Assembly: GCA_043808325.1 (NCBI GenBank)
Contig: JAZDEY010000034.1
Span: 10,657 to 74,656, forward strand
Length of the DNA: 64,000 nucleotides
Direction: 5' to 3'
DNA from: JAZDEY01 sp043808325 [NCBI: Candidatus Eiseniibacteriota bacterium]
GTDB taxonomy: Bacteria; Arandabacterota; Arandabacteria; Arandabacterales
Numbering within the stretch: the stretch's first letter is position 1; each line of letters starts with the position of its first letter. The translations under genes were made by a program, and so were the position numbers. Shown here piece after piece: positions 3,706 through 41,896 of this stretch. Under the pieces are notes generated by a model. That model worked only from the letters and a program-made list of their open reading frames with translations. It made no database searches and was not told the origin of the DNA.

Positions 3706-3786
3706 CATACCCTCCTCTGTTCACACTCATCAGATGCACATCTTCGCGGACACTCAACTCGCGCGGTCTCGCCGCACCCCATTTTT

Positions 3787-5793
3787 CTATTTTGTAAGGG
3801 TGACTCGGGCGGTTTCGGCGCTGCCCCCGGAGGTCACGCGCACGAAATAGACTCCCGGTGACATCGCGGCACCCCGCGCGTTAGCCCCATCCCAATATGC
3901 CTCGAAGGCACCGCCACCGGTCGGGCTCGCGCTTACGGGAAGCGCTTTCACAAGCCGGCCCGTGATGTCGTAGACATTGGCGCCGACGCCGCGATGAGGC
4001 GACGAGAAGACGACAGTTGTCGCGCCGCTTGACGGATTCGGATTGATGGAAACGATCTTGAACTCCTGGGGCTGCGTCGCCGGGACTCCCGCGGGATCGA
4101 ATATCTCGAAGTCGGCGTCGGAGCCGTCGTAAGCGGAGTAGCCCGAGCGGTCGTAGGCGACCACTCTTATCCGGCATTGGGTCGACATCGGTCCGGCGAC
4201 ATTCCACACGAATGAGGAATCGTTGGCCTCACCGTGGGCAAGCACGGTGGGGAAGGTCGCCCCGCCATCGGTCGAAAGTAGAATGCTTACCGAATCGACC
4301 TCGATGTCATCGAACGCAATCCATCGGATGGTATCCGGATCACCCATCTCAAAGAGTTCGCCGCCGTTTGGGGTCGACAAGGTCACCGTAGGTGGAACCA
4401 GGCCCACCGCCACACTGATATAGCCCACGCCCTCAGTGAAATGGATGTTGTAGATTGATACTCCGGTGGCGGCGTTGGCATAAGACTTGGAATCGGGTGT
4501 TGAGATCAGGTTCAATCGGGTATTGGGATTGTAGGTTCCGCCCGAGCCGGGGTAGGGATCGCCGGCGTCGCCCTGGTTCACGTTGCTCTCAAGGTCACAC
4601 TCGCCGTCGGCCTGTTCGACCGCCACCCGATAGTGCGGACTGCCGCTGCCACAAAGTTGGCTGTTGTTGTTGGACGTGTTCTCATCGACGTGGTAAATCA
4701 CCAGACCCTTGCTGGGCAAATTGAAATCGAATTTGACTTTTCGGCGGTGCTCGACGACGAAATACTCCTTGTTGGGGGCGCCGTTGGTCCAGACCTTGTA
4801 GGCAACCGGATAATCTTCAACCCGCTCGATTGGCACGTCGATCAGGTTGCCTGTGGGAACAACCGGAGTAATGTAGCCCAACTTTATCTTGCCCATGGCA
4901 TCGATATGGCAAGGGGTTATGCCCGCGCCGCACCAGCTTCCGGATGCCATAAGCGACCACTTGCCGACGCCTTCCGAGTCATAGCCGTAATCGTAAAGAT
5001 CCGGCAGGCCCAGCACGTGCCCGAACTCGTGGGCAAACACGCCGCACTTGCCGTCCTCCGGTTCCATTGAGTATCGGTTGATGTAGACCCCGTCAACCGC
5101 GATCGGAGTTCTTGTGTAACCGGCATGGGAGTGGATGTCGTTGACGTTGCCCGACGTCTCATAGCCCGTTCCGGAGTGGATCACAAAGAGGGCATCGACG
5201 TAGCCGTCATCGTCGGCCGAGTGTGGTATGCCATCGGGGCCGTTGTTGTCGTACTGCGAAAAGTCCACATAGGGATCTGCGGCTGCGACCGCGTCTTCCA
5301 CCATCTTCTTGGCGTTGCGTGGATATGTGCCGAAGCCCTTCTGGCCGTCAACATAGTAGGCGTAGGTCTGGGGCATCCGGTACCAGCTCGAGACCTCACC
5401 GGGCACGTCGAAATTGCCGTAAGAGTTCTCAAGGTAATAATCCCGCATACTGCCGGTCGTGAAGGTGCCAACCGAGAAAAGTAGCGAATTGAAGTAAGGC
5501 GCCGGGTGAGCCACGGTATCGGCCAGGTGGTCGGAGAAGTCAACGATGATGACAACCGCGGCCCGCGTGGTCATTACCAAGGCCTTTCCCCCTTCAAGCT
5601 CGTAGACGTTATTCTCCCCGAACTGCTCGAAGCCGCGGGCGATCGCCTGCTCCATAAAGGCTCCCTCCTCGGCGAGCTTGCCCTCAGCCCGGAGTTTTTC
5701 GATTAGGTCGGGATGCAACGGCATGGTGACCACAGGCTTGGCTACCGACAGGGCTACAAGCACGACCACTGCGACGGCTAAAGCTCTCGACAT
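3787..5793 (-). CDS. Secreted M6-family metalloprotease, paralogue of the preceding gene
   Basis: This 668-residue protein matches the product at 1696-3705 along its whole length: signal peptide, propeptide-like region, HEFGHVLGLPD near residue 255, SLMASGSW, Ig-like linker and a C-terminal VYDITGRLVKAL ... GVYFVRVTSG module. It starts at ATG 5793 with AAGGGGG six nucleotides upstream. The gap to the downstream paralogue is about 80 nt. The pair looks like a tandem duplication that has since diverged. The intergenic sequence at 3775-3790 resembles one arm of the 1606 repeat (CACCCCATTTTTCTA). Expected role: extracellular proteolysis. Confidence 0.85.
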   Translation of the reverse strand: MSRALAVAVVVLVALSVAKPVVTMPLHPDLIEKLRAEGKLAEEGAFMEQAIARGFEQFGENNVYELEGGKALVMTTRAAVVIIVDFSDHLADTVAHPAPYFNSLLFSVGTFTTGSMRDYYLENSYGNFDVPGEVSSWYRMPQTYAYYVDGQKGFGTYPRNAKKMVEDAVAAADPYVDFSQYDNNGPDGIPHSADDDGYVDALFVIHSGTGYETSGNVNDIHSHAGYTRTPIAVDGVYINRYSMEPEDGKCGVFAHEFGHVLGLPDLYDYGYDSEGVGKWSLMASGSWCGAGITPCHIDAMGKIKLGYITPVVPTGNLIDVPIERVEDYPVAYKVWTNGAPNKEYFVVEHRRKVKFDFNLPSKGLVIYHVDENTSNNNSQLCGSGSPHYRVAVEQADGECDLESNVNQGDAGDPYPGSGGTYNPNTRLNLISTPDSKSYANAATGVSIYNIHFTEGVGYISVAVGLVPPTVTLSTPNGGELFEMGDPDTIRWIAFDDIEVDSVSILLSTDGGATFPTVLAHGEANDSSFVWNVAGPMSTQCRIRVVAYDRSGYSAYDGSDADFEIFDPAGVPATQPQEFKIVSINPNPSSGATTVVFSSPHRGVGANVYDITGRLVKALPVSASPTGGGAFEAYWDGANARGAAMSPGVYFVRVTSGGSAETARVTLTK

Positions 5794-5998: not shown

Positions 5999-7372
5999 TT
6001 AATCCAGATAGCCGAGGCTCTTCAGGATCTTCCAGCGGCCGCTCTCGGTGGCAGATGGGATTGGGGCAGGATGGAGCCCTCCCGGGGCGATCCAGTTGGA
6101 GAGCAGCGTGTCGAGCCCGGCAGCCCCCTCGGGGTTCGATGGATGAAGATTCCGGGTCTCACCGGGGTCGGCCTTGAGGTCATAGAATTCCTTGGTCAGC
6201 GTAGCCGGCGGGTCCTCTCGCCAAACCAGCTTGGCGCTCCCCGTCCTTATGGCGTGGCGCGGCAGGCACTTCTCGGGAAAGGGGAAGGTCTCCGAAAACG
6301 CATAATCGGTGGTCGCCTCAGCCGTACCCCGGACCAGCGGAATCAGGCTCTTACCTTCGACCTCAGGCGGGCACGCTATCCCCAGCGCCTCGAGGATGGT
6401 CGGGAAGATGTCGATGCTCTGGACCAGGCCCGCTACGCGGCGCCGCGCGGCGTCAATTGACGGGATACGCAGCACCAGCGGGATCAAAATGCATTCCTCG
6501 TAGAGCGCAATATCATGCCCGAAGTAGTATTCGTGCTCGTAGAGAATCTCGCCGTGATCCGAGGTAATGACCACGATCGTATTCTTGAGAAGGTCCAGGG
6601 CCGCAAGCTCATCCAGGACCCTGCCCACCTGGACGTCGGTAAACGCGATCTCCCCGGCATAGAGCCCTCGAACGTAGTTCAAGTCTGCGTCGGCGAGCGC
6701 TATCTTCTCTCGCCAAACCTTCATGGGGAATTCCTCCTGATCGGTTGCAGGGCCCGTGTAGGCCGTCGAGAATTCCCGGCGATAGCGAGGGGGTGGGTTG
6801 TAGGGGCGGTGAGGATGAAACCAATGGATCCACAGGAAGAACCTGGAATCGCGGTTATCCCTGAGCCAGGTCAGGGCTTCGTCAGTTGTGGGATCTTGCT
6901 CGCGCTCGTTCATCTCGCGCCGCACGCGATCGGAGAATGCCAGGTGGATCGCACGATAACTCTGAAAGCCCTGGTCAAGCCCGTATTTGGCATCAAGCAC
7001 GTGGCTGCTCAGCATCGCACCGGTAGTGTAGCCGCGGCCTTCCAAGACCTCGGCGAGGGTGGCGAGCCTGGCATCGACCCGGCTCTCATGGCTTATCGCC
7101 TTATGGGTCCTTGGATACATTCCCGTGAATATGGACGTGTGCGATGGTAAGGTCTCGGGTGACTGGCAGACAGCCTGCTCAAAGACGACGGCATCCTTGG
7201 CGAAGGCATCTATCCTCGGGCTTGTCGGTCTCTGGAACCCGTAGCAGCCGAGGTAGTCAGCTCGCAGGGTATCTATAGTTATGACAATCACGTTGAGACC
7301 GGGCTTCTTGCCGCAGCCGGCGACGAGCAGAGCGGCCAGTGCGCCCAGCGCGACGTACTTTCTAAACTTCAA
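5999..7372 (-). CDS. Sulfatase-fold lipoprotein with Thr at the nucleophile position
   Basis: This alkaline-phosphatase-superfamily/sulfatase-domain protein has 457 residues. The N-terminus is a lipoprotein signal ending LLVAGC, so it is probably anchored in the envelope facing outward. Metal-site motifs are present: TIDTLRADYLGCYG near residue 33 and TSDHGE further on. The position that is Cys or Ser in FGly sulfatases is Thr (ETLPSHTSIFTG), as in phosphoethanolamine and phosphoglycerol transferases. A classical sulfatase activity is therefore doubtful. It ends LKSLGYLD, a tail shared with the other sulfatase-fold proteins of this window. The start is TTG with GAGGAGG five nt upstream. It is divergent from a GT-C gene. 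Confidence 0.8.
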   Translation of the reverse strand: MKFRKYVALGALAALLVAGCGKKPGLNVIVITIDTLRADYLGCYGFQRPTSPRIDAFAKDAVVFEQAVCQSPETLPSHTSIFTGMYPRTHKAISHESRVDARLATLAEVLEGRGYTTGAMLSSHVLDAKYGLDQGFQSYRAIHLAFSDRVRREMNEREQDPTTDEALTWLRDNRDSRFFLWIHWFHPHRPYNPPPRYRREFSTAYTGPATDQEEFPMKVWREKIALADADLNYVRGLYAGEIAFTDVQVGRVLDELAALDLLKNTIVVITSDHGEILYEHEYYFGHDIALYEECILIPLVLRIPSIDAARRRVAGLVQSIDIFPTILEALGIACPPEVEGKSLIPLVRGTAEATTDYAFSETFPFPEKCLPRHAIRTGSAKLVWREDPPATLTKEFYDLKADPGETRNLHPSNPEGAAGLDTLLSNWIAPGGLHPAPIPSATESGRWKILKSLGYLD

Positions 7373-9427: not shown

Positions 9428-9545
9428 GGTGGACCGGCGAGAATCTCACGCTGTGGTTTCACATAGGGCAACCTCGGCATCCTGGGAATCGGCCCGGTGT
9501 CTCGACGTGACCTGTCAGCGATGATACCACGTTAGGCTTGTGCTC

Positions 9546-9573
9546 CAGGACAAGGATGGGTATGCTTGTCCTG
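9546..9573. promoter_or_regulatory. Inverted repeat at the start of the sulfatase-fold gene
   Basis: The arms CAGGACAAG (9546-9554) and CTTGTCCTG (9565-9573) are perfect over 9 bp, with a 10-nt loop. The right arm reaches the GTG start codon at 9573. It may be an operator or an mRNA hairpin limiting initiation. A possible -35/-10 pair (TTGTGC, 17 bp, TATGCT) runs through it. Confidence 0.4.
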
Positions 9574-11390
9574 TGAAAATCTCATTTGATTTCAGAGTTA
9601 TCGAGGCTGGCACAAGGAGGGGGTCTGGCCGGGGCCGGAGGGTATTCGCCATCGCCGCGCTCCTGGCGGCGGGGTTGTTGACATTCTGCGCTTCATGCTC
9701 CAAGCCCCCAGCGAAACCCAATGTGGTCCTAATTGTTATGGATGCGCTGCGCCCCGACTATCTCGGTTGCTACGGCTGTGACCGGCCGACGTCCCCACAC
9801 ATAGATGATCTCGCCCGCCAAGGCATCCTCTTTGAGAACGCCTTCACCCATGCGTCGTGGACCAAGCCTTCGTTCGCGAGCTTGCTGACCTCGCTCTACC
9901 CCTTCCAGCACGGCGTGGTGGATTGGGAATCGGTAATGCCTGATACCATATCCACCCTGCCCGAGGTTCTGCGGCAGAACGGGTACAGTACATCGGGCGT
10001 CATCAATATGCTCGGCATCACCGGTGAGTTCAAAGTCACCAAGGGGATAGACAAGCTGAGTGAAGCCCCCAAGGGCGAGCTGAACGCCACCCGGATCACC
10101 GATACCGCTCTCGCCCTGATCAAGAACTCATCCACTCCCTTCTTTATTCTGATCCACTATTACGATACCCATTGGCCGTATAAGCCTCCGCCCGAGTACC
10201 TCGAATTGGTCCGCAGAACGGATGATCCCAATCCATTTGCCTCGAGAGCAGCCGCGCGCGCGGAGCGCAACGAGAGGCCGTCCCAGGAATACATAGACCG
10301 CCAGAGTCTGCTTTATGCCGCTTGCGTGAAGTACGTCGATGACGAGATCGGGAGGTTGGTGGAGTCTCTGGATAGGATCAGCCCGCGCTCGGAGACCGTC
10401 GTCATTATCACTGCCGACCACGGGGAAGCCTTCTGGGAGCACGGGGCACGCGCTCACGGCACAGACCTCTACGACGAAGCGATACGGGTTCCTCTCATAA
10501 TCCATTATCCTGCTCGGTTTCACAAGACACGCAGAATTGAATCACTGGTGCGGCACATCGATCTAATGCCTACCATCCTCGAGCTCACGGGGGCAACCGA
10601 CAGCGGTCACCGCGAAGGCCTGAGTCTGGTCGGGCTTATTGAGAACGCCAAGCGAACCGGAGGGGGCGGTAAGTTTCTTCCTGCGAGTTGCGCCTTGAGC
10701 GAACTCAACCTCAGGAGGGTGCCCGACCTTAAGTCGATACGCACGGCTAATAGGAAGATCATAGTGGAGCCGGCAACCTCGGTGGTTCAACTCTACGATG
10801 TGATAGGCGATCCCGGCGAGACCACCAACCTGTGGCCAGGGCTCTTCGGGCCCCGTGATTCCCTCTTCGAGATGGTGAGCAAGATTCCCGGCGCAAGCCT
10901 GAACGGCTGGCGAGTCGGTCTCACGGGGTTGGACACAACCAGCGCCGTTGCCGTGCGAGTGAGCGTCCTGGATGGGGGGCGGCTGCTCCTGGCCCGGAAA
11001 GTGACCGCCCCCGGGGACGTCAGCCTGGAGGTCGATGCTGACAGCTCCACACTCAATGTGAAAGCAAGACCGGCCGGTCTCCAAATCCTGCTCTTCGATT
11101 GCGTTCCGCAGGATGCCCGAATCACCGTCGAGATCACTGCTCGCGGCACCCCGCTTCCCGCGGCGATCTACACCGGCATGCAGGGGCGAGGTACGCCTGG
11201 CGCAACGATTAGGCTCGATCCCGAGAGCAGCCGCGGACTGCCCGGGACTTTCCAGCAATTCCGCGCGTCCTCACAGCCGGGTGCATTTGTCTGGTGGTCG
11301 CCTGGTGAAGCAATCGGCAAGCCCGGCAAGGAAGTGACGCTTACGCCGGAGGAGACCAAACGGCTCCGGGCACTCGGATACATCCAGTGA
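9573..11390 (+). CDS. Sulfatase-fold lipoprotein with C-terminal WW-PGE domain
   Basis: A Sec/lipoprotein-like signal (ending TFCASC) precedes a sulfatase-family domain of about 400 residues: VMDALRPDYLGCYG, SWTKPSFASLLTSLYP (Thr at the nucleophile position), DTHWPY, ITADHGEAFWEHG and HGTDLYDEAIRVPL. A further ~200 residues form a separate C-terminal domain (NGWRVGLTG ... FVWWSPGEAIG ... LRALGYIQ) also found in the paralogues at 35921 and 11436-13205. The start is uncertain: GTG 9573, or GTG 9540 which would add 11 residues. It follows a GT-C gene on the same strand and converges with its own broken paralogue. Substrate unknown; a phospho-transfer or phosphohydrolase role is as likely as sulfate removal. 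Confidence 0.75.
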   Translation: MKISFDFRVIEAGTRRGSGRGRRVFAIAALLAAGLLTFCASCSKPPAKPNVVLIVMDALRPDYLGCYGCDRPTSPHIDDLARQGILFENAFTHASWTKPSFASLLTSLYPFQHGVVDWESVMPDTISTLPEVLRQNGYSTSGVINMLGITGEFKVTKGIDKLSEAPKGELNATRITDTALALIKNSSTPFFILIHYYDTHWPYKPPPEYLELVRRTDDPNPFASRAAARAERNERPSQEYIDRQSLLYAACVKYVDDEIGRLVESLDRISPRSETVVIITADHGEAFWEHGARAHGTDLYDEAIRVPLIIHYPARFHKTRRIESLVRHIDLMPTILELTGATDSGHREGLSLVGLIENAKRTGGGGKFLPASCALSELNLRRVPDLKSIRTANRKIIVEPATSVVQLYDVIGDPGETTNLWPGLFGPRDSLFEMVSKIPGASLNGWRVGLTGLDTTSAVAVRVSVLDGGRLLLARKVTAPGDVSLEVDADSSTLNVKARPAGLQILLFDCVPQDARITVEITARGTPLPAAIYTGMQGRGTPGATIRLDPESSRGLPGTFQQFRASSQPGAFVWWSPGEAIGKPGKEVTLTPEETKRLRALGYIQ

Positions 11391-11435: not shown

Positions 11436-13205
11436 CTACTGAAGATAGCCCAAGGACCTGAGGAGTTGCTTCTCTTCGGAAGTGAGCGGCACCCGCTTGC
11501 CACGGCGGCGCATCTCCTCGCCCGGTAGCCACCAGATGAACATCCTGGGGGCGTCCGACTGCAGCTGTTCCTGGTAGGCATCAGGTAGCCCGCGGGCCTC
11601 GGTCAGGCTCACAGGAAACGCTTCGCCGACGGTGTTCTGTCCGCTCTTGCCGACATAGATTGTGCCGGGCTCTGGCCTGCCTTCTGCAAGCACCTTGAAG
11701 ATTACCGCCGCGCCCTTCGGCTCAGTATCGAAGAAAACTGTGCCGGGGCTCTTCGGGGCTATCGTGATCTTGACGGAGGTACTGTCCTGGGAGGCCGCGG
11801 CGACCATTCCTGGATAACCTGCCAGCTTGCCTAGCGTGCTCACCTGCCCACCGTCCACGCGGGCCTCTACCTCGACCTTGAGGTCAGGGACTCTTCCCGC
11901 TAAACTCACCCTCCATCCCCCCAGAGTACTGCCGGCGACCTTTGCCATCAAGCCAGATAGCGAATCTCCAAATGCAATCCCTTCACCCCAATGATTGACA
12001 CTCTCGTCCGGATCTTCCCGAAGATTGTACAAACTGACCAGTGCCGTTGCCGGCTCCACGATCAGTTTCCAGCCGGCAGTACGCAGCGACTTGGTGTCCA
12101 GGTTCTTCCTTTGCATCACGTCGCTTTCAGAGAGAGCCACGTCTTGAGGAAACAGGCTTCCGGGGGTCGCGACTCGCTTCCGCTTCTCGATCAGCGGAAC
12201 CAGGCTTGCTCCCTCGCGATGCTGGTTGTCACGGGCCCCGACCAGTTCAACCACGGTCGGCAAGAGGTCAACCAGCCTCACCTGCTGATCGATTCTCGCG
12301 GGGCCACGATACTTGGCGGGATAACGGATTATCAGCGGGACCCGCAGGACCTCGTCAAAGAGGTTGGTCCTGTGCGTGCCCTTGCCATGCTCTCAGAGAG
12401 CCTCGCCATGGTCGGCGGTCAGGATAAGCACCGTGCTGCGCTCGAGTCCGGCTTTACGCAGAAAGGCGACCAGCCTGCCGATGTTGTCGTCGACGTACCT
12501 TATCGAAGCGCTGTAAAGCAGTCTTTGCCGCTCTGCTAACATCTGGGACGGCGCCGACCCTTCCTCGTCGTACGATTCCGCGGACGAGCCGATCGGGCTC
12601 GTCTCGCCCGGCTTGAGGACAAGGTCGACATACTTAGCCGGCGCCGGGTAGGGCCAATGGGTATTGAAATAGTGGATCATAATGAAAAACGGCTTGGAGG
12701 ATTTCCCAATGAGATCTATAGCATCATCAGTCATCAAGGCGGCATCGCGGAGATACTTGGGGTATTCCTTCCTCTCGTCTATGCCCTGGGTCACGTTGAA
12801 CGACCCCGCAATTCCGAACATGGTGATCAGGCTCATCGTATGGTAACCGTGGCTTCGGAGTATCTCGGGCAGCGTAACAATCGTATCGGACATCACGGCT
12901 TCCCAGTCCACTACGCCGTGCTGAAACGGATACAGCGAGGTCAGGAAGCTTGCAAATGAAGGCTTGGTCCAGGAGGCATGCGTTATGGCCGTCTCGAAAA
13001 GGGCACTTTCGCCGGCCAGGCTGTCGATGTTAGGCGACGTGGGACGATCGAACCCGTAGCAGCCCAGAAAATCAGGCCGGAGGGCATCAACGACAATGAG
13101 CACTACGTTGGGGTTGCGCGGTTGCCTGGAGCAGGAGACCAGGAGCAGGCAGGCTGCCACCGAGATGAGAAACCCGACACAGCCGGGAAAGCGAGGACCT
13201 CTCAT
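11436..13205 (-). pseudogene. Sulfatase-fold lipoprotein interrupted by one in-frame TGA
   Basis: The minus-strand frame from ATG 13205 to the stop at 11436 is 590 codons long and is broken only by TGA at 12395-12393. Both halves align without shift to the paralogues at 9573 and 35921. N-terminal part: lipobox LLVSC, VVDALRPDFLGCYG, SWTKPSFASFLTSLYP, LTADHGEAL. C-terminal part: EHGKGTHRTNLFDE, GGWRVSLAG, FIWWLPGEEM, LRSLGYLQ. In the intact paralogue the TGA position is Trp (GEAFWEHG), so one G-to-A change from TGG explains it. Either a recent nonsense mutation, a sequencing error or stop readthrough is possible. The frame is otherwise clean, which favours a very recent event or an error. Confidence 0.8.
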
Positions 13206-34151: not shown

Positions 34152-35921
34152 ATGAGCCTCGCCAGCCAGCCACATGCCACCGCACCGGCCGATATCCCCC
34201 GGAGACGTCTTGATTGGCCGGCGATCGGGATGCTGGCGTTGGCCGCCGCATATTCGCTGTTCCTGGGGTGGAACTTCGCCCCTGCGGTTGCGGCGTTCGA
34301 TGAACACGGGTACTACGCCCAGGGCAGTCTCCTTGCGGCGACCGGGAAGCTCTACTTCGTGCCCGAGTCACCGACTCAGTACATCGGGCAACACTGGTTC
34401 AGCACACTTGACGGCCGCTACTACAGCCGCCATTCGCCGGGGCTTGCGGTTGTGGTTGCGCTGATCTTCCGCACGCTAGGTCCTGATGCCAGCTTCGCGG
34501 TCAACCCCCTGCTGGCGGTGCTCGGTCTTGTGGGCATTTTCCTCCTGGTGCGCAGCCAACTGGCAGGTGGGTGGGGTCTCGGTGCGGCCCTGCTCCTTGC
34601 GGCCAACCCGACCTACAATGCCCATGCCATCGCCGGGGATGCGCATATGTCAGTCACCGTCCTAATGCTATGGGGCACTTATCTTCTCTTTCGATGGCGC
34701 CAAGGTGGTGAGATCGGACAAGTACTTGTGGCCGGGCTGCTGCTCGGCTGCGTGCCTGCGCTGCGCCCCCCAGATGCACTCTACGGCCTCGGTATCGCTC
34801 TTTTCCTCTTGATGTCCCTGCGAGCCCATCCGCATATCTTACGCCACTACGCGGCTGCCGGGGCTGCGGTGATGATTCCCATCATCCCGTTCCTGGCATA
34901 CAACCATATGTCTTTTGGCGCATTCTGGAAGACGGCCTACGGCCTTACCAATGAACAGACCGCCTTCTCATTCCAATATCTGCAGCAGCACCTTCCGCAA
35001 TATCTGGGAAACCTGTTGCGGAACGATGGCGCGGGGTTGTTCTTTCCGCTTGGCTGCGTCGGCATGGTCGTGATGGCAGCTCGCAAGCGGACACGTGCGC
35101 TCGGCTGGAGCATGCTGGCTCTGATCGTGCCGGTCAGCCTGCTCTACATGGCCTACTACTGGGCGCCGCGCGTGCCGGCTTCTCTCACTATGCGGTTTCT
35201 GCTGCCCACGATTCCCCTGTACATCTTGGCGGGTCTCTGGCTGATCTGCTTGGTGACGCGTTCGCTGGGGAAAAAGCGACGCCTGGCGATTGCGGCGACA
35301 CTTGTCGCCCTGCATCTGGCTTGGGGTGTCCCGAAGAGCTTCACGCAGTCTCGATCCGAGTACTACCACAAATCCTTGATGAGAGCGGCTTCGGTGGGGT
35401 TGGAGGCCAGCGTGGCCGATGGCAGTGTGATCATTGCAAACCCGGGAGTGCTTCAGCACCTGGACTTCTTGCGGCACTGGCGCCTGGCTGACCCGATGCT
35501 TGTGGCGGGCGCTCGGGGCTCAGCCGGCAGGAAGTCAGCTCAGGACCAGCCTCAAAGGACACAGAGCGGGGCGCGCCAGACCTACTCCAGCGTGGATCCG
35601 GGCGAGCGTGGCAAAGTTTTCATGGATGATCTGTGGACGTGGGCGAACGCAAGCCCTGTTTGCCTTGTGGTTTCTGAGTCGCAGATCTCCGGTATGCTTG
35701 ATCTCTTGGGATACGCTGGCGGCTTCAAGATAATCGGCCGCATTCCGATGCCAGAGCCCCCGCCTGCCCGGCTGGCGGAGGCGATCGGCTCCCTTAGGGG
35801 ATCGAAGCAGCATACTGCGCCCGGGCCAGGTTCCCGGCAGGGACCCTCCGATCGGGCCGACGCCGCCGAGCTGTCCCGAGGGCCGGAGCCCCTGGTCGTC
35901 GCGGAACTGGAGCGTCCCTGA
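34152..35921 (+). CDS. GT-C family 39-like membrane glycosyltransferase
   Basis: The 589-residue polytopic membrane protein has a first-loop acidic motif VAAFDEHGYYAQGSLLAATG and then GRYYSRHSPGLAVVVAL, as in family 39/GT-C transferases. About ten helices follow to residue 415. A hydrophilic segment (ARGSAGRKSAQDQPQRTQSG) lies near 465 and a Pro/Arg-rich tail ends the protein. The ATG lies 4 nt after the mobB stop. The TGA shares one base with the ATG of the following sulfatase-fold gene (TGATG), so the two are translationally coupled. Acceptor unknown. Confidence 0.75.
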   Translation: MSLASQPHATAPADIPRRRLDWPAIGMLALAAAYSLFLGWNFAPAVAAFDEHGYYAQGSLLAATGKLYFVPESPTQYIGQHWFSTLDGRYYSRHSPGLAVVVALIFRTLGPDASFAVNPLLAVLGLVGIFLLVRSQLAGGWGLGAALLLAANPTYNAHAIAGDAHMSVTVLMLWGTYLLFRWRQGGEIGQVLVAGLLLGCVPALRPPDALYGLGIALFLLMSLRAHPHILRHYAAAGAAVMIPIIPFLAYNHMSFGAFWKTAYGLTNEQTAFSFQYLQQHLPQYLGNLLRNDGAGLFFPLGCVGMVVMAARKRTRALGWSMLALIVPVSLLYMAYYWAPRVPASLTMRFLLPTIPLYILAGLWLICLVTRSLGKKRRLAIAATLVALHLAWGVPKSFTQSRSEYYHKSLMRAASVGLEASVADGSVIIANPGVLQHLDFLRHWRLADPMLVAGARGSAGRKSAQDQPQRTQSGARQTYSSVDPGERGKVFMDDLWTWANASPVCLVVSESQISGMLDLLGYAGGFKIIGRIPMPEPPPARLAEAIGSLRGSKQHTAPGPGSRQGPSDRADAAELSRGPEPLVVAELERP

Positions 35922-37714
35922 TGCCAGTGAAGCTACATCTGCGTTGTTCAGGCGGGAGAAAGCGTGGATTGCCGGGCGAGATGCCTATCCTCTTGGCAGT
36001 GTGCTTGGTCGTCTGTGCGCTGGCCTTGGTCACAATCCCGTTCTTATCGTGTAACCGCCGAGCCGAACGGCCCAATTTTGTCTTGGTGGTTGTTGATGCC
36101 CTTCGTCCGGACTTCCTGGGATGTTACGGGTGCCGTATGCCAACCTCGCCCAACATCGATCAACTGGCGGCTGGCGGGGTCGTCTTTGAATCCGCGGTAT
36201 CGCACGCACCCTGGACCAAGTCGGCGTTCTCTAGCATGCTCACGGCCCTCTATCCGTTTCAGCACGGCGTTGTCAATTGGGAAGCCGCGATGCCCGATAC
36301 TATTATGACCCTGCCCGAGATTCTCAGCAGCCAGGGCTACAACACCATGGCAGTTGTCAACATGCTTGGCCTTACCGGCGAGTCAAAGGTGATGAAGGGA
36401 ATCGCCGAGATCAGCGAAGGCCACAAGCACGATCGTGATGCTCCCGCCACTACCGAGGCTGCGATTGAGCTCATCAAGGCTTCTTCCAAGCCCTTCTTCA
36501 TAATCATTCACTACTTTGACACCCACTGGCCTTATCGTCCCCCCCAGGAGTACGTGGACATGATCTCGGGCGCAGGAGCGCCCGACTCCACAGATCCAGC
36601 ATGTGCGCTCCGGTTGCGTTACGGCGGTTGCGTCAGGTTTGTGGATCAATCGATCGGAAGGCTGGTGGCCTTCCTGGATGGGGCTGGGATGCGGAACGAC
36701 ACCGTGCTGCTTATCACCGCCGATCATGGCGAGGGTCTAATGGCACACGGCGCAGGGTCCCACGGCACCAACCTCTATGATGAGGCAATACGAGTCCCGC
36801 TGATAATCACCTACCCTGCGAGGTACGGCAAGGGACTGCGCATAGCGGACCAGGTCCGGCATATCGATCTCCTCCCCACAATCGTCGACCTTGCAGGAGC
36901 GCGGGACGGCCAGCGAAGAGAGGGGACCAGTCTCGACCCGCTGATTCGGAAGGGTTCGAGATCGGCCGACCTGCCGGTGGGGAAGGGGAAGGGGTCGCTG
37001 CTCCCGGTGGACTGTGCGCTCTGCGAGATCGGCCTCAGGGACGTTCCCGAGGCCAAATGCATACGCACCAATGACTGGAAGCTGATTATAGAGCCCTCTA
37101 CGGCGGCCATTCAGCTCTATGACCTGACACAAGATCGCGGCGAGCTAACCAATCTTTGGGGCAGTGGCCCGACAGCCGGCGACACCCTGCTCCGTGTGAT
37201 CGGCCGGGTCCCCGGCGTCAGCGTAAAGGGTTGGCGGATAGGGTTCACGGGATCGATGCGGACCGGAGGCATCCGGGCTGATGTCCAGGTCGGGAGCGAG
37301 GGCCGGATCAGGCTGGCCGAGCCCGTGGCCGGCAGCAACCTGCTGTCATTCAGACTCAGCGAGGACAGCACCGCCATGGAAGTGATTGCCGGCCCACAGG
37401 GTTTGCAAATAATGCTCTTCGAAGTCGAGCCTTCCGATCGGCCCGTGACCTTCAAGTTCACGGCTGACGGGCAGGATGCCCCGCAAGCTGTCTCGGTCGG
37501 TGAGACCGGGGAGCGGCCGTTTGGCCAGGCGTTCGTCCTGACCCTTGATGACGCCATGGGTCTGCCTCGGGCCTTCGGTCAATCCCGCTCGTCCACAGCG
37601 TCCGGAGTTTCCCTCTGGTGGCTCCCGGGAGAGCATCTGCAGCGCGCCCAAAAGGCGGTCATCCTGTCCCCCGAGGAGCAGAATCGGCTGCGGTCGCTTG
37701 GCTATATACACTGA
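35921..37714 (+). CDS. Sulfatase-fold lipoprotein with C-terminal WW-PGE domain
   Basis: The 597-residue protein has a lipoprotein-like signal (TIPFLSC near residue 43) and a sulfatase-family domain: VVDALRPDFLGCYG, HAPWTKSAFSSML (Thr at the nucleophile position, with SA instead of PS), DTHWPY, ITADHGEG and HGTNLYDEAIRVPL. A C-terminal domain of about 200 residues has KGWRIGFTG, VSLWWLPGEHLQ and the end LRSLGYIH. It is a full-length paralogue of the proteins at 9573 and 11436-13205. Coupling to the GT-C gene by TGATG implies joint function, perhaps adding or removing a phospho or sulfo group on the glycan made by the GT-C partner. Confidence 0.78.
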   Translation: MPVKLHLRCSGGRKRGLPGEMPILLAVCLVVCALALVTIPFLSCNRRAERPNFVLVVVDALRPDFLGCYGCRMPTSPNIDQLAAGGVVFESAVSHAPWTKSAFSSMLTALYPFQHGVVNWEAAMPDTIMTLPEILSSQGYNTMAVVNMLGLTGESKVMKGIAEISEGHKHDRDAPATTEAAIELIKASSKPFFIIIHYFDTHWPYRPPQEYVDMISGAGAPDSTDPACALRLRYGGCVRFVDQSIGRLVAFLDGAGMRNDTVLLITADHGEGLMAHGAGSHGTNLYDEAIRVPLIITYPARYGKGLRIADQVRHIDLLPTIVDLAGARDGQRREGTSLDPLIRKGSRSADLPVGKGKGSLLPVDCALCEIGLRDVPEAKCIRTNDWKLIIEPSTAAIQLYDLTQDRGELTNLWGSGPTAGDTLLRVIGRVPGVSVKGWRIGFTGSMRTGGIRADVQVGSEGRIRLAEPVAGSNLLSFRLSEDSTAMEVIAGPQGLQIMLFEVEPSDRPVTFKFTADGQDAPQAVSVGETGERPFGQAFVLTLDDAMGLPRAFGQSRSSTASGVSLWWLPGEHLQRAQKAVILSPEEQNRLRSLGYIH

Positions 37715-37816: not shown

Positions 37817-38155
37817 TTAGGGTCCGATGATCTCGTTCAGACCCTCTACGACTTGGGCTATCTCTTCTGGACTTGCCCTCCCGATTCTCTTGTCGATCCT
37901 CTCCACGGCCAATGTCCTGATCTGACTGATCTTCACCCATGACCGCTTCGGCAAACCCTTTGACTCCAACTCAAGTGTCAAGGGAAACCCTGCCCGCTGA
38001 GGCTGACTCGTGATCGCCACTGCTATTACTGTCCCTGAGCGCTCGTTGAAAACATCCTGACTCAGGATCAGAACCGGCCGCTGCCCTGCCTGCTCGCTTC
38101 CCCGAACTGGGTTCAGATCGGCCCAGCGAATCTCACCTCTCAGTATTCTGGCCAT
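37817..38155 (-). CDS. mazF: MazF-type mRNA interferase toxin
   Basis: The 112-residue toxin has the PemK/MazF fold: [32 protein letters not shown] with the conserved Arg, then [28 protein letters not shown] and a C-terminal helix ending LNEIIGP. Members cut mRNA at short sites when free of antitoxin. The start codon lies inside the last codons of the antitoxin gene (16-nt overlap), the standard arrangement of such pairs. It converges with the sulfatase-fold gene ending at 37714; no clear terminator is seen in the 100 nt between. Confidence 0.9.
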
Positions 38156-38382
38156 CGCCCCAACTCCTCCGAAAGCCCCTCCTCGGCCAACGCCTTCTCA
38201 AAGCCAGGATCAAGTTTGCTGCACTCGCGAGCCAGGCGACTCTGGTCAACACGCTCCAGTTTCTCCTTGACTGCTATCTGGATAGCCTGACTCCGATTTC
38301 GGAAGACTGCCCTCTTCACCAGCCGGTCCAGCCTTGCTAGGAGTTTCTCATCGATGGTTATGGCAACCTTTGATCTACTCAT
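38140..38382 (-). CDS. Ribbon-helix-helix antitoxin of the MazF-type toxin
   Basis: The 80-residue protein starts at ATG 38382 with AGGGGGTG upstream. The N-terminus [38 protein letters not shown] is a ribbon-helix-helix DNA-binding domain. The acidic C-terminus ([20 protein letters not shown]) should bind the toxin. It very likely represses its own promoter through the inverted repeat at 38396-38414. Confidence 0.85.
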
Positions 38383-38395
38383 ATCGCACCCCCTA

Positions 38396-38414
38396 GTATG
38401 ATGATATATCATAC
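38396..38414. promoter_or_regulatory. Operator-like inverted repeat at the toxin-antitoxin promoter
   Basis: GTATGAT (38396-38402) and ATCATAC (38408-38414) are perfect arms around GATAT, and the centre is itself palindromic. The site covers the -10 box of the antitoxin promoter, as expected for ribbon-helix-helix autorepression. Confidence 0.65.
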
Positions 38415-38429
38415 CAACAGGAATGTCAA
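38401..38429 (-). promoter_or_regulatory. Sigma-70 promoter of the toxin-antitoxin pair
   Basis: On the minus strand a perfect TTGACA (38429-38424), 17 bp, then TATCAT (38406-38401). The antitoxin ATG is 19 nt further on. Confidence 0.7.
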
Positions 38430-38518
38430 GCACATTCTGTCCTACGGACCCCAACTACGGCTTATACTGCGGCAATCGGGCTGCGCCAGCACCTTGCCTC
38501 CCGCCCATCAAGATCCGG

Positions 38519-39871
38519 CTACAGGGGCTTGAGGCCCTTCATTGCCTCAGCAAGTGCAGCGTCCGGCAACTCATAGTCGGTAAGCTCGCCCCTCAAATAG
38601 GAGTCGTAAGCTGCCAGGTCAAAGTGGCCGTGCCCGCTAAAGTTGAAGAGGATCACCCTCTCCTCGCCCGCGCTCTTCGCCTGAAGCGCCTCGTCAATGA
38701 CTGCCTTTATGGCGTGGGCCGTCTCGGGAGCCGGCAGGATTCCCTCGGTCCTCGCAAAGGTGAGCGCCGCCTCAAAGACCTCGATCTGGTTATAGGCCCT
38801 CGCTTCAATCAGACCTCGCCTTACGAGCTCGCATAGCAGGGGACTGTCACCATGGTACCTGAGCCCGCCCGCATGGATCTTCGCCGGCATGAACTTGTGG
38901 CCCAGCGTGAACATGGGCAGCAGGGGCGTGAGCTCCGCGGTGTCGCCGAAGTCATAGGCGAATATGCCCTTGGTGAGCGTGGGACAGGCGGTCGGTTCAA
39001 CGGCCACCGCGCGCAAAGCTCTTCCCTCAAGCTTGTCCTTGATGAAAGGCATGGCGATCCCACCGAAGTTTGAGCCGCCCCCCACACAACCTATCACGAC
39101 GTCCGGATAGTCACCGGCTTTGTCCATCTGCTTCTTGGCCTCAAGCCCGATTACGGTCTGGTGGAGCAGCACGTGGTTGAGGACACTCCCGAGCGCATAC
39201 TTGGTGTCGGCGTCGGAGACTGCATCGTTGACGGCCTCGCTTATGGCGATGCCGAGACTCCCGGGAGATTCGGGGTCCTGCTCGAGCATGAGCCTTCCGG
39301 CCTGCGTGTCCCGGCTTGGGCTCGGCACCACCTTTGCTCCCCAGACCTCCATCATTATCCTTCTATAGGGTTTCTGCTCGTAGCTCACCCGCACCATATA
39401 GACCTTGCACTCCAGGCCGAAGATATTGCAGGCGAAACTGAGCGCGCATCCCCACTGGCCGGCGCCGGTCTCCGTCGTCAGGCGCTTCACGCCCGCCTGC
39501 TTGTTGTAGTAGGCCTGCGCGACCGCGGTGTTGGGCTTGTGGCTTCCGGTGGGACTGACGCCCTCGTACTTGTAGTAGATCCTGGCCGGCGTCTTGAGGG
39601 CGACCTCGAGCCTGCGGGCCCGATAGAGGGGAGTCGGCCTCCAGAGCGTGTAAGCGTCAAGCACCTCCTCGGGTATCTCGATGTATCTCTGGGTGGAGAC
39701 CTCTTGCTCGATCAGAGCCATCGGGAAGAGGGGCGCAAGATCATCGGGACCAATGGGCTTGCCGGTTCCCGGATGGAGCACTGGCCGCATGCCGCCCTCG
39801 AGATCGGCAAGTATGTTGTACCACTGCCTTGGAATTTCCTTCTCCTCAAGCGTGAACTTCGTCGGCTGCAT
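38519..39871 (-). CDS. trpB2: TrpB2-type tryptophan synthase beta chain
   Basis: The 450-residue PLP enzyme belongs to the TrpB2 branch, longer than TrpB1 (about 400). It has the TrpB2-like N-terminus LTLEEK-type [19 protein letters not shown], the family block [12 protein letters not shown], the PLP lysine in GSHKPNTA (K112), ETGAGQWG, and a glycine loop [10 protein letters not shown]. It joins indole to a serine-derived aminoacrylate to make Trp. Some TrpB2 enzymes of archaea prefer O-phosphoserine. ATG 39871 has AAGGGGG upstream; an upstream extension of the frame overlaps the next gene and is not conserved. It lies 26 nt after a SerK-like gene, and both are preceded by a Trp attenuator. 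Confidence 0.9.
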
Positions 39872-39897: not shown

Positions 39898-40764
39898 TCA
39901 ATCGTCGAAATGGAAAGTCGGCTCCTGGTAGAACCTGATCTTCCTTTCCCGGATCTTTCTCCTTAACACGCGCTCGAGCGCAGTCTTCTTGGCAGCGAGG
40001 CTTCTCGAGTCCTTGAGGAAGGCAAGCGGCACCGAAAGCGAGACGGCTCGCTTGGGCACGCCGAAGCGTGTTATCCCACTCGGACACTTCTTGCCGCTCA
40101 GCGCAAACTCGAGGATGTCGCGCTTGGTGAAGCCTCGGTAGCAGATCAACGCCGAGAAGCGCGGGTAGTTTCGGCGAAGGTCATCGAGATTGGTGTAGCT
40201 TACCCGATCCACGTTGCGAGCGTCCTTGAGGGCGTCGGTGACGGCTCTTGCGGCGTCCAGCCGGTCGGTGGCTGATAGGCCGGTCCGGATGACGAAGGCG
40301 GCGCCTGTGGGGAGGAGGATCGAGCATGCCGCGTCCCCTGTGAAGGTCGGGATGAAATCGTGTTGCCGGGTGAGGCGCGCCCGGATTGGAGAGACCTTCG
40401 ATACCCTGGATGCCCGTCGGAGGCGCTTGGCTATGGCGGCGCCGCTTAGCCCCTCAACGGCGTGATGCCATGTGGAGAGAACGAGGCCCTCATCGTCAAG
40501 GTCGACATCCTGGATGACGACGCATCTCGCTCCGAGGGCGCGCAGGGCTTCCAACCTGTTGGCCCCATCGAGGAGAAGGTGAGTGGCCGTGCCATGGTCT
40601 CGCGCCGCGATGAGAGGGTTCCTGAGACAGCCGTCGGCGGCGATCCTCTCGGCGAGGGGCCCTGACCGCGTTGGATCGGGGTCCTCGTGGAGCAGGAGGG
40701 AGTTCATAGCAATTACCTGGATGGATGGGAGCTTGCCTATCTCAAGGTGCGGTTCTCGGTTCAA
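39898..40764 (-). CDS. SerK/SbnI-like ParB-fold protein, putative free-serine kinase
   Basis: The 288-residue protein has an N-terminal ParB/Srx-like domain with HE at residues 26-27 and [17 protein letters not shown] near 63-79, where SerK has a DGHHR motif. The rest follows the SerK/SbnI layout: a TWHHAVEG segment, a middle region with [17 protein letters not shown], and [29 protein letters not shown], where SerK has KTTRHVLPFIP. SerK (archaeal) and SbnI (staphylococcal) phosphorylate free serine to O-phosphoserine. The His residues of DGHHR are replaced (DGANR), so activity needs proof. The TTG start has GGAGAGGTGAG upstream. Adjacent trpB2 and the attenuator suggest it feeds O-phosphoserine to TrpB2. 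The alternative is a ParB-like regulator. Confidence 0.6.
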
Positions 40765-40813: not shown

Positions 40814-40841
40814 AAAAAGGCCCGTGGCGTTTCCACGAGCC
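40814..40841 (-). terminator. Second intrinsic terminator in the trp leader
   Basis: On the minus strand GGCTCGTGG (40841-40833) pairs with CCACGGGCC (40827-40819), 9 bp with one G-U, followed by TTTTT (40818-40814). It stands 10 nt after the first terminator and about 50 nt before the SerK-like start. Confidence 0.75.
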
Positions 40842-40850
40842 TGGATATGG

Positions 40851-40883
40851 AAAAAGGCGGGAAACGCCTTGGCGTCCCCGCCT
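40851..40883 (-). terminator. Attenuator terminator (3:4 hairpin) of the trp leader
   Basis: On the minus strand AGGCGGG (40883-40877) pairs with CCCGCCT (40861-40855) and ACGCC with GGCGT inside, followed by a run of T. AGGCGGG can instead pair with CCCGCTT (40907-40901), which would prevent the terminator. Confidence 0.85.
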
Positions 40884-40900
40884 CGGGAAGATCTAGCCTA

Positions 40901-40929
40901 AAGCGGGCACACCTACAATGAGGTGCGCC
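40901..40929 (-). promoter_or_regulatory. Attenuator regions 1 and 2 (1:2 pause hairpin and antiterminator arm)
   Basis: On the minus strand GGCGCACCT (40929-40921), which begins inside the second Trp codon, pairs over 9 bp (one G-U) with AGGTGTGCC (40914-40906). Overlapping the second arm, CCCGCTT (40907-40901) can pair with AGGCGGG of the terminator (7 bp, extendable by two more pairs past a mismatch). This is the classic mutually exclusive 1:2 / 2:3 / 3:4 arrangement. Confidence 0.8.
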
Positions 40930-40972
40930 ACCAGTTCAATGTGAGTGCCAGGCTGAGTGCTTTCGTTTTCAT
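40913..40972 (-). CDS. trpL: trp operon leader peptide with tandem Trp codons
   Basis: A 19-codon frame starts at ATG 40972 and ends with TAG at 40915-40913, encoding MKTKALSLALTLNWWRTSL. The two adjacent Trp codons (40933-40928) followed by Arg-Thr-Ser resemble the end of enterobacterial TrpL (WWRTS). A stalled ribosome at these codons would cover region 1 and free region 2 to block the terminator; a ribosome reaching the stop would cover region 2 and allow termination. No ribosome site precedes the ATG. The predicted transcript starts within a base or two of it, so the leader is probably translated from a leaderless message, as reported for Sinorhizobium trpL. Confidence 0.85.
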   Translation of the reverse strand: MKTKALSLALTLNWWRTSL

Positions 40973-40979
40973 CAGTGCT

Positions 40980-41008
40980 AGTGTATCACGGGGCCTCTGC
41001 GAGTTCAA
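40980..41008 (-). promoter_or_regulatory. Sigma-70 promoter of the trpL-serK-like-trpB2 operon
   Basis: On the minus strand TTGAAC (41008-41003), 17 bp, TACACT (40985-40980). Only 7 nt separate the -10 box from the leader ATG, so transcription should start at or next to that ATG. Confidence 0.7.
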
Positions 41009-41050: not shown

Positions 41051-41103
41051 TGCCGATTGGGAGATCTTCCCGGTCAGTTTCAGGGACTCCCGCACTTGCT
41101 GTC
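41051..41103. repeat. Dispersed repeat, copy 2, downstream of the FkbM gene
   Basis: It shares an identical 34-bp block (41060-41093) with the copy inside mobB (33888-33921). It begins directly at the stop codon of the FkbM methyltransferase and lies upstream of the trp leader promoter. The folded minus-strand form pairs GGGAGTCCC with GGGA...CTCCC and might weakly terminate FkbM transcription, but there is no T-run. Confidence 0.75.
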
Positions 41104-41896
41104 ACCAGCCGTCATCAAACAATTCAGAACGAACGACAAGCAAATCCGCCTGCAGAAGTTCTTTGTGCTCATTGAAGTGAAACTGCACAACATCGTAGAG
41201 GCGAAATCCGGCAGCTTGTCCAAACGCCAGGACTTCGGGAAGCAACGGAGCCCCTTCGTTGTATTTCTGCACATTGCACTCAATCTGCAGGGCGCGCGCA
41301 TGTGCGAGGCACCGCGGCGCTCCACGCAAAATGTCGAGCTCAGACCCCTGCGTGTCAATCTTGATAAAGTCCGGCATGGGCCAGCCGCGCTCTTCAACCA
41401 AACTGTCTAAGCGACGTGTCGTACGGCGGCTGGAAAGCAGGGCACCTGATGCATAGAACGCAGTCCGTTCCAGATAAAGGGAATCTCCAGTTCCCGGAGC
41501 GTAGGCGCTGGTTTCGTAGAAGGTCTTCTCCACTCCATCGTGCTCGTCCAATATGGCAATTGCGTATGGCTCCTTACTACGGATTAGGGCGGGTTCATGC
41601 TTCGCCATCGCTTCAAACAGAAAGAAGTCAGTGTGCGGCATAAGAGGCTTGTACACCGTTTGCTGCCCGTCCGGGGAAAATGGATCATTGGCACCAATGT
41701 CGTAAAACACCTTCGGGACAAAGCACTGAGTCAGAAACAGCCGCCAGCGGATCATGCTGTAGAGGCGGGGGTCCTGCAGAAAGGTCAGTATCTGATCGTC
41801 ATTTCCAAATGTGTTTACGGGGAAGCGCCCTTTCAGCTTGGCAATCCCGCGGGAGATGAGTGACATGGATTTGTTGATGGGTGTCTTAGACGGCAT
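41102..41896 (-). CDS. FkbM-family SAM-dependent methyltransferase
   Basis: The 264-residue protein has the FkbM pattern: a SAM-binding motif FYDIGANDPFSPDG near residue 65, FLFEAMAKHEPAL, and the hallmark PDFIKIDTQGSELDILRGA near residue 175. Such enzymes methylate hydroxyl groups of sugars, lipids or natural products. The start is ATG 41896; no good ribosome site is seen, and M11 is an alternative. It lies apart from the trp operon, whose promoter is downstream, and next to a GGDEF remnant. Substrate unknown; envelope glycan is plausible given the neighbourhood. Confidence 0.8.
   Translation of the reverse strand: MPSKTPINKSMSLISRGIAKLKGRFPVNTFGNDDQILTFLQDPRLYSMIRWRLFLTQCFVPKVFYDIGANDPFSPDGQQTVYKPLMPHTDFFLFEAMAKHEPALIRSKEPYAIAILDEHDGVEKTFYETSAYAPGTGDSLYLERTAFYASGALLSSRRTTRRLDSLVEERGWPMPDFIKIDTQGSELDILRGAPRCLAHARALQIECNVQKYNEGAPLLPEVLAFGQAAGFRLYDVVQFHFNEHKELLQADLLVVRSELFDDGW

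Follow-up and report, generated by a model that had tools for sequence, protein, structure and literature searches.

Transcription attenuation by tryptophan (Trp) is classical: in the Escherichia coli trp operon, a leader peptide with tandem Trp codons is followed by alternative hairpins and a U-tract. The his operon attenuator sets the helices A:B, C:D and E:F against B:C and D:E. Attenuators of trp operons have also been described in Corynebacterium and Streptomyces (PMC1262725; this and the other papers given by PMC number are cited from excerpts). Here we describe a leader on the minus strand of a 64,000-nucleotide stretch of contig JAZDEY010000034.1 from a Candidatus Eiseniibacteriota bacterium, hereafter the window, which lies in front of a SerK-like gene (serK) and trpB2 and which, judged from its sequence, is very probably a ribosome-mediated, Trp-sensing transcription attenuator. 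Like the trp attenuators, it combines a tandem-Trp leader peptide with alternative antiterminator and terminator hairpins and a U-tract; unlike them, it would control serK-trpB2 and not the usual trp genes, it has two terminators, the second probably with an antiterminator to itself, and it matches no Rfam family, none passing the gathering threshold anywhere in the window. With the his attenuator it would share a six-segment relay logic in which, as in one relative (L001), the last hairpin is the terminator, whereas its control codons are for Trp and not for His, and an extra T-run follows its middle hairpin.

Read along the minus strand, to which all coordinates of the locus refer, the order is an FkbM-type methyltransferase gene, promoter-like hexamers, a leader open reading frame (ORF), overlapping inverted repeats, two terminator-like hairpins, the SerK-like gene and trpB2, the three genes each being open from start to stop. 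The leader ORF (40913-40972) encodes a peptide of 19 codons, MKTKALSLALTLNWWRTSL-stop, with two adjacent Trp (UGG) control codons at 40928-40933 (40933-40931 and 40930-40928). Segment 1, GGCGCACCT (40921-40929), can pair with segment 2, AGGTGTGCCCGC (40903-40914), which can alternatively pair with segment 3, GCGGGGACGC (40872-40881), to form antiterminator 1, in which GTGT/ACGC and CCCGC/GCGGG are separated by one mismatch. Segment 3 also belongs to hairpin 3:4 (40883-40855), which together with the T-run 40855-40851 makes up terminator 1 (40851-40883). The helices 1:2, 2:3 and 3:4 are mutually exclusive, and 3:4 ends in the U-tract. The region 40851-40941 folds at -42.7 kcal/mol, compared with a shuffle mean of -29.5 (standard deviation 3.1; z -4.24), with none of 200 shuffles being as stable; for the terminator 1 region (40851-40890) the values are -22.9 kcal/mol and z -4.21.

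A second intrinsic terminator (40814-40842) lies between the leader ORF and the first gene of the window, formed by hairpin 5:6 (40842-40818), with 10 pairs, and a T-run (40818-40814). Its 5' arm and loop constitute segment 5 (40826-40842), whose core GGAAACGCC (40834-40826) is fully complementary to the core of segment 4, GGCGTTTCC (40860-40868). The sequence-only reading that preceded this analysis had proposed a complete Trp attenuator over 40851-41008, from the -35-like TTGAAC through the last T of terminator 1. The leader, the tandem Trp codons, the three alternative helices and the U-tract are all present and the span is real, but that reading missed the second terminator (40842-40814) and the probable relay. 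Scanning both strands of the 64 kilobases for short ATG ORFs that contain TGGTGG and have a perfect-stem terminator in the next 110 nucleotides (nt) returned two places, compared with two in total in 200 triplet-shuffled windows; one is this leader, and the other (14103-13993) overlaps a 501-residue ORF (14806-13301).

The closest relatives among the matches listed are L001, a Krumholzibacteriia metagenome bin, and L083, in which SerK is 48% and 51%, and TrpB2 76% and 79%, identical to the window proteins, respectively. Their leader peptides differ (MMITLLSINNWWCTCT in L001, MMKQYICISWWCTSL in L083), with WW near the stop kept in both. In a three-way alignment of the window, L001 and L083 leaders, all nine pairs of helix 1:2 and all nine of helix 2:3 are found in each leader, one pair of the former and three of the latter having changed on both sides. 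This is the outcome that the sequence-only reading had counted on when it named folding and covariation in relatives as its check, and we regard this conservation and covariation as the strongest evidence against chance. Hairpin 3:4 of L001, with 13 pairs, is not followed by a U-tract, which this leader has only after hairpin 5:6.

Ahead of the leader, a -35-like hexamer TTGAAC (41003-41008) and a -10-like hexamer TACACT (40980-40985), both assigned by consensus match and spaced 17 nt apart, score better than any other pair up to 75 nt from the chosen leader start codon. The hexamers previously taken as the promoter are present, but only 8 of their 12 bases match the consensus, and a separate promoter scan of the window with a threshold of at least 9/12 missed them (score 8). 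Since the start codon lies 7 nt past the -10-like box in the window, 5 nt in L001 and 4 nt in L083, transcription would start on the ATG or close to it, making the window message nearly leaderless. The trpL RNA of Sinorhizobium meliloti begins at the leader ATG (PMC7298713), so that there, too, a leaderless RNA encodes the Trp leader peptide; the start site in the window is judged from promoter-like hexamers only, and the targets differ, trpE(G) there and serK-trpB2 here. In the other operon group, the distance from -10 to start is 22-40 nt in its 12 leaders, seven of which have an 11/12 consensus promoter, picked by the same rule relative to the chosen start codon. The FkbM-type methyltransferase gene (41102-41896) lies immediately ahead of the leader promoter.

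The second gene of the operon, trpB2 (38519-39871), is intact and encodes 450 residues from the ATG at 39871. Its product scores above the family cut-offs (675.3 versus 518.85 bits for TIGR01415; 755.9 versus 366 for PRK12391, NF009057), and its best structural relatives by sequence are the TrpB2 entries 6hul, 4qys and 6hte of the PDB, which belong to the same family; the window copy shares its operon with a SerK-like gene under a putative Trp attenuator. The serK-like gene (39898-40764), also intact, encodes 288 residues from a TTG start and ends at 39898, so that it is separated by 26 nt from the trpB2 start at 39871 on the same strand. The earlier naming of the two genes, and of the operon they form, holds in each case, for serK through a sequence match to SbnI and SerK and a full-length fold match, though its scores lie under the curated family cut-offs. 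O-phosphoserine is a reported substrate of TrpB2 enzymes (Busch 2014 as cited in PMC11917138), which suggests that the operon is a unit for turning indole into Trp: a kinase would phosphorylate free serine, and TrpB2 would join the O-phosphoserine to indole, yielding Trp. We consider it likely that the operon makes Trp in this manner, with O-phosphoserine as the probable co-substrate and salvaged indole as the presumed acceptor. A toxin-antitoxin-like pair of ribbon-helix-helix and MazF/PemK-type genes (37817-38454, minus strand) is located directly behind trpB2.

Relatives were gathered through TrpB2, the best 80 loci of a longer list being kept; a locus search with the SerK-like protein as query gave no relative. 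Among these 80, serK stands beside trpB2 in two (L001 and L002), and SerK-like genes occur in 4 of 80 genomes in the phylum of L001 and in 17 of 82 in that of L002. With each place counted once, serK adjoins trpB2 at 15 distinct loci. All 13 loci with enough upstream DNA have a leader ORF in which Trp codons cluster, in runs of up to WWWWW, and behind it a terminator-like hairpin with a T-run, read by eye (13/13); in the two loci outside this set, L089 and L091, a contig end cuts the upstream region, the L091 terminator still being visible. L101, where a contig end leaves just a piece of serK, also has a Trp-clustered leader. With a ribosome placed on the last Trp codon of the 12 other-group leaders, the terminator arm paired upstream over at least 5 nt in seven and over at least 3 nt in 11, L101 having none. 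At three loci (L087, L090 and L100) leader and serK are separated by a chorismate mutase gene, matching Pfam CM_2 in the first two, and here the leaders are rich in Trp, phenylalanine and tyrosine (WFWYWYY or WFWCWYY, as in HWFWYWYYH) and are followed by a terminator. At L099, the trpB2 match is split in two and relatives have a longer SerK frame, so that this copy looks damaged or misassembled.

SerK-like genes that lack trpB2 in the fetched stretch present another picture: an upstream terminator was found in none of seven, and a Trp-run ORF is absent upstream of six, the exception being L161. Outside the two operon-bearing phyla, the search covered 64 + 50 genomes only. The 64 genomes, from the phylum of L003, contain one SerK-like gene (L161), and the 50 further TrpB2 genomes contain one (L162), in both cases with no trpB2 in the fetched stretch. 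In the opposite direction, Trp leaders were sought before trpB2 itself. A WW or WxW ORF was present within 350 nt upstream in 12 of the 75 TrpB2 loci having at least 200 nt of upstream DNA; L001 and L002, although among the 75, are outside the 12 because serK lies between leader and trpB2. Four of the 12 (L004, L009, L012 and L024) were judged by reading to be leaders, with a Trp run followed by a terminator, no serK, and ORFs that begin 190-293 nt before trpB2; this suggests that Trp attenuation of trpB2 may extend more widely than the serK pair. The other eight were rejected, six because the terminator scan was empty (L030, L034, L036, L038, L039 and L048), L058 because the terminator precedes the ORF, and L077 because the hairpin is weak.

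The metabolic setting was assessed in 16 relative genomes, the window's own not being among them, of which 15 carry serK-trpB2 and one (G149) carries serK and a leader with no trpB2 in its short stretch. A comparison of DnaB proteins suggests that the window comes from the phylum of L001 or a neighbouring one, the top hit being 58% identical and the better half of the hits 54-58%. Both trpA and trpB1 were found in three of these genomes, trpC and trpD in four each, and 12 of the 16 have none of the four genes, which fits indole salvage. Such salvage has been reported for TrpB2 of Thermococcus kodakarensis (Hiyama 2014 as cited in PMC11085991), and this archaeon possesses SerK as well (PMC5120207). 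In the two phyla taken together, 13 of these 16 genomes lack trpA, compared with 66 of the other 146 (Fisher p 0.0076), a difference that counts as support only, because the genomes are related and their completeness is not given.

According to the mechanism we propose, when tRNA-Trp is charged the ribosome would reach the leader stop codon, 3:4 would form and transcription would stop at terminator 1; with segment 4 held in 3:4, terminator 2 would form too. When charged tRNA-Trp is short, the ribosome would stall on the two Trp codons and mask segment 1, 2:3 would form and terminator 1 would be lost. Segment 4, now free, could then capture the 5' arm and loop of terminator 2 while the 3' arm is still to be transcribed, and both stops would be passed. 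This probable second antiterminator, 4:5, gives the leader the look of a six-segment relay, a reading towards which we lean. The window, L001 and L083 share GCGTTTC within segment 4 and GAAACG within the second loop without any change, and the stem of hairpin 2 shows three two-sided changes between the window and L083. When transcripts were cut just after segment 5 and the ribosome was placed on the second Trp codon, the unconstrained minimum-energy folds contained both 2:3 and 4:5 in all three leaders, the lower 2:3 stem being slightly shifted in L001, and 4:5 took in bases of the outer 5' arm of terminator 2. The 13 pairs from segment 4 to the tail were matched by 0 (window), 19 (L001) and 14 (L083) of 1000 tail shuffles, and in a test of the 4:5 duplex 17 of 2000 hairpin shuffles were as good for the window and 66 of 2000 for L083. 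Since the U-tract of L001 stands only behind 5:6, the Trp signal would reach the L001 terminator only via such a relay.

Several results weigh against the relay. The duplex test is weak in L001, where as good a result was given by 490 of 2000 shuffled hairpins and by 400 of 1002 stretches taken from elsewhere in the locus; the cut transcripts were matched in stability by 37 (window), 506 (L001) and 97 (L083) of 1000 shuffles; and the 4:5 core pairs are without covariation across the three leaders. In full-length minimum-energy folds of L001 and L083, 3:4 and 5:6 persist with the ribosome on either Trp codon. The full-length window leader changes from 3:4 to 2:3 when the ribosome is moved from the first to the second Trp codon, terminator 2 being present in both cases, and if constrained to 2:3 it reaches -50.5 with 5:6 and -44.1 with 4:5, so that 5:6 is better. 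As full-length folds favour 5:6, antitermination, especially at terminator 2, must be kinetic. The greater stability of 5:6, the lack of covariation in the 4:5 core and the weak L001 tests would all suit an ordinary four-segment trp attenuator, in which hairpin 2 serves as a back-up terminator, as occurs in other systems, and segments 4 and 5 are complementary only because the two hairpins are alike; the segment 5 core GGAAACGCC indeed resembles GGGGACGCC of segment 3. Yet in L001 the 2:3/3:4 switch has been kept and without a relay could not act, the GCGTTTC/GAAACG pair has stayed invariant while the stem around it changed, and the segment-4-to-tail pair counts, together with the duplex tests of the window and L083, also stand against the four-segment attenuator, which we treat as a possibility of some weight. 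That leader ORF and hairpins came together by chance, for which nothing but the small size of the ORF speaks, is extremely improbable in the face of the fold stability, the leader-plus-terminator scan and the conservation in relatives.

What the operon makes can be weighed in the same manner, beginning with its first gene. The best NCBIfam name for its product is 'bifunctional transcriptional regulator/O-phospho-L-serine synthase SbnI', and the protein falls under both NCBIfam equivalog cut-offs (74.9 versus 350 and 37 versus 380), which counts against a direct assignment and makes it a homologue rather than a member of the SbnI or archaeal SerK equivalog. A predicted model (mean predicted local distance difference test score 73.6; three sequences) superposes on SerK and SbnI with Z scores of 18.7-20.5 and a root-mean-square deviation of 3.3-4.3 over 220-241 residues spanning both domains, at 18-22% identity. 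Glu27 aligns with SerK Glu30 and SbnI Glu20, and Asp66 with SerK Asp69 and SbnI Asp58, both residues being invariant in 23/23 aligned rows (positions counted on the alignments). We take Glu20 and Asp58 of SbnI to be functionally important, and the importance of SerK Glu30 is suggested by the titles of PDB entries for E30A and E30Q mutants. The window protein thereby resembles SerK of Thermococcales and SbnI of staphylococci in fold, in its two domains and in the positions of the catalytic Glu and conserved Asp, and differs from them in its low identity in the fold alignments and in its place beside trpB2 in bacteria. The NCBIfam name, which includes transcriptional regulator, and an archaeal SerK-like protein that binds cytidine triphosphate rather than adenosine triphosphate (survey excerpted from PMC12704722) would favour a ParB-like nucleotide-binding regulator sharing an operon with trpB2 over a metabolic kinase. 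The model matches ParB, Noc and sulfiredoxin with Z scores of at most 7.6 over 73-100 residues, far from the two-domain SerK/SbnI match, and the invariant Glu27 occupies the position of the SerK and SbnI glutamates, making such a regulator unlikely; the first gene is probably a homologue of the SerK/SbnI-like free serine kinases, with a predicted kinase activity. As for trpB2, a 2007 study invoked a further function, unidentified at the time, for a trpB2 gene that remained when the other trp genes had been lost (excerpt of PMC1854888), and TrpB2 could accordingly yield a product other than Trp, by serine deamination or another beta-replacement, with Trp control being indirect. We hold this to be improbable, as Trp codons cluster in every testable serK-trpB2 leader and the four serK-less trpB2 genes also have a Trp-run leader and terminator.

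In the literature searched, no Trp attenuator in front of serK-trpB2 appeared among the matches listed, nor is there one in the excerpts of PMC12704722, PMC11917138, PMC1262725, PMC1854888, PMC2395257, PMC5120207, PMC11085991, PMC7298713 and PMC9413887. A candidate attenuator has been reported before trpB2A of Corynebacterium diphtheriae (PMC1262725), a gene that we infer to be a second copy of the usual trpB kind. Makino 2016 did not see clear-cut SerK homologues in bacteria (PMC5120207, in excerpt).

Elsewhere in the window, two minus-strand ORFs (11436-12281 and 12393-13205) appear by eye to be parts of one interrupted sulfatase-type gene, with similar longer ORFs at 5999-7372, 9540-11390 and 35921-37714, the last matching Pfam Sulfatase. 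Two adjacent and similar ORFs (1696-3708 and 3787-5793, minus strand), by eye secreted protease-like and with like C-terminal tails, are probably a tandem duplication.

Together, these observations point to a whole in which attenuator, relay and a SerK/TrpB2 phosphoserine-indole unit belong together, an explanation that is quite likely to be right. Attenuation by Trp being classical, what is probably new is the serK-trpB2 target and the probable relay on a nearly leaderless message. Whether the locus represents a portable Trp module, with a serine kinase and TrpB2 acting on salvaged indole under a six-segment relay, tandem terminators and an almost leaderless leader, is in our view evenly poised. 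If the relay holds, a Trp leader remote from the model phyla would turn out to work by his-type logic. It has so far been unclear what stand-alone TrpB2 does and where its phosphoserine comes from; with a kinase-type gene and trpB2 placed under one Trp switch, regulation alone would link enzyme, co-substrate and product, and the attenuator would tell which amino acid TrpB2 really makes. In bacteria without the rest of the Trp pathway, such a module would be the sole Trp synthase.
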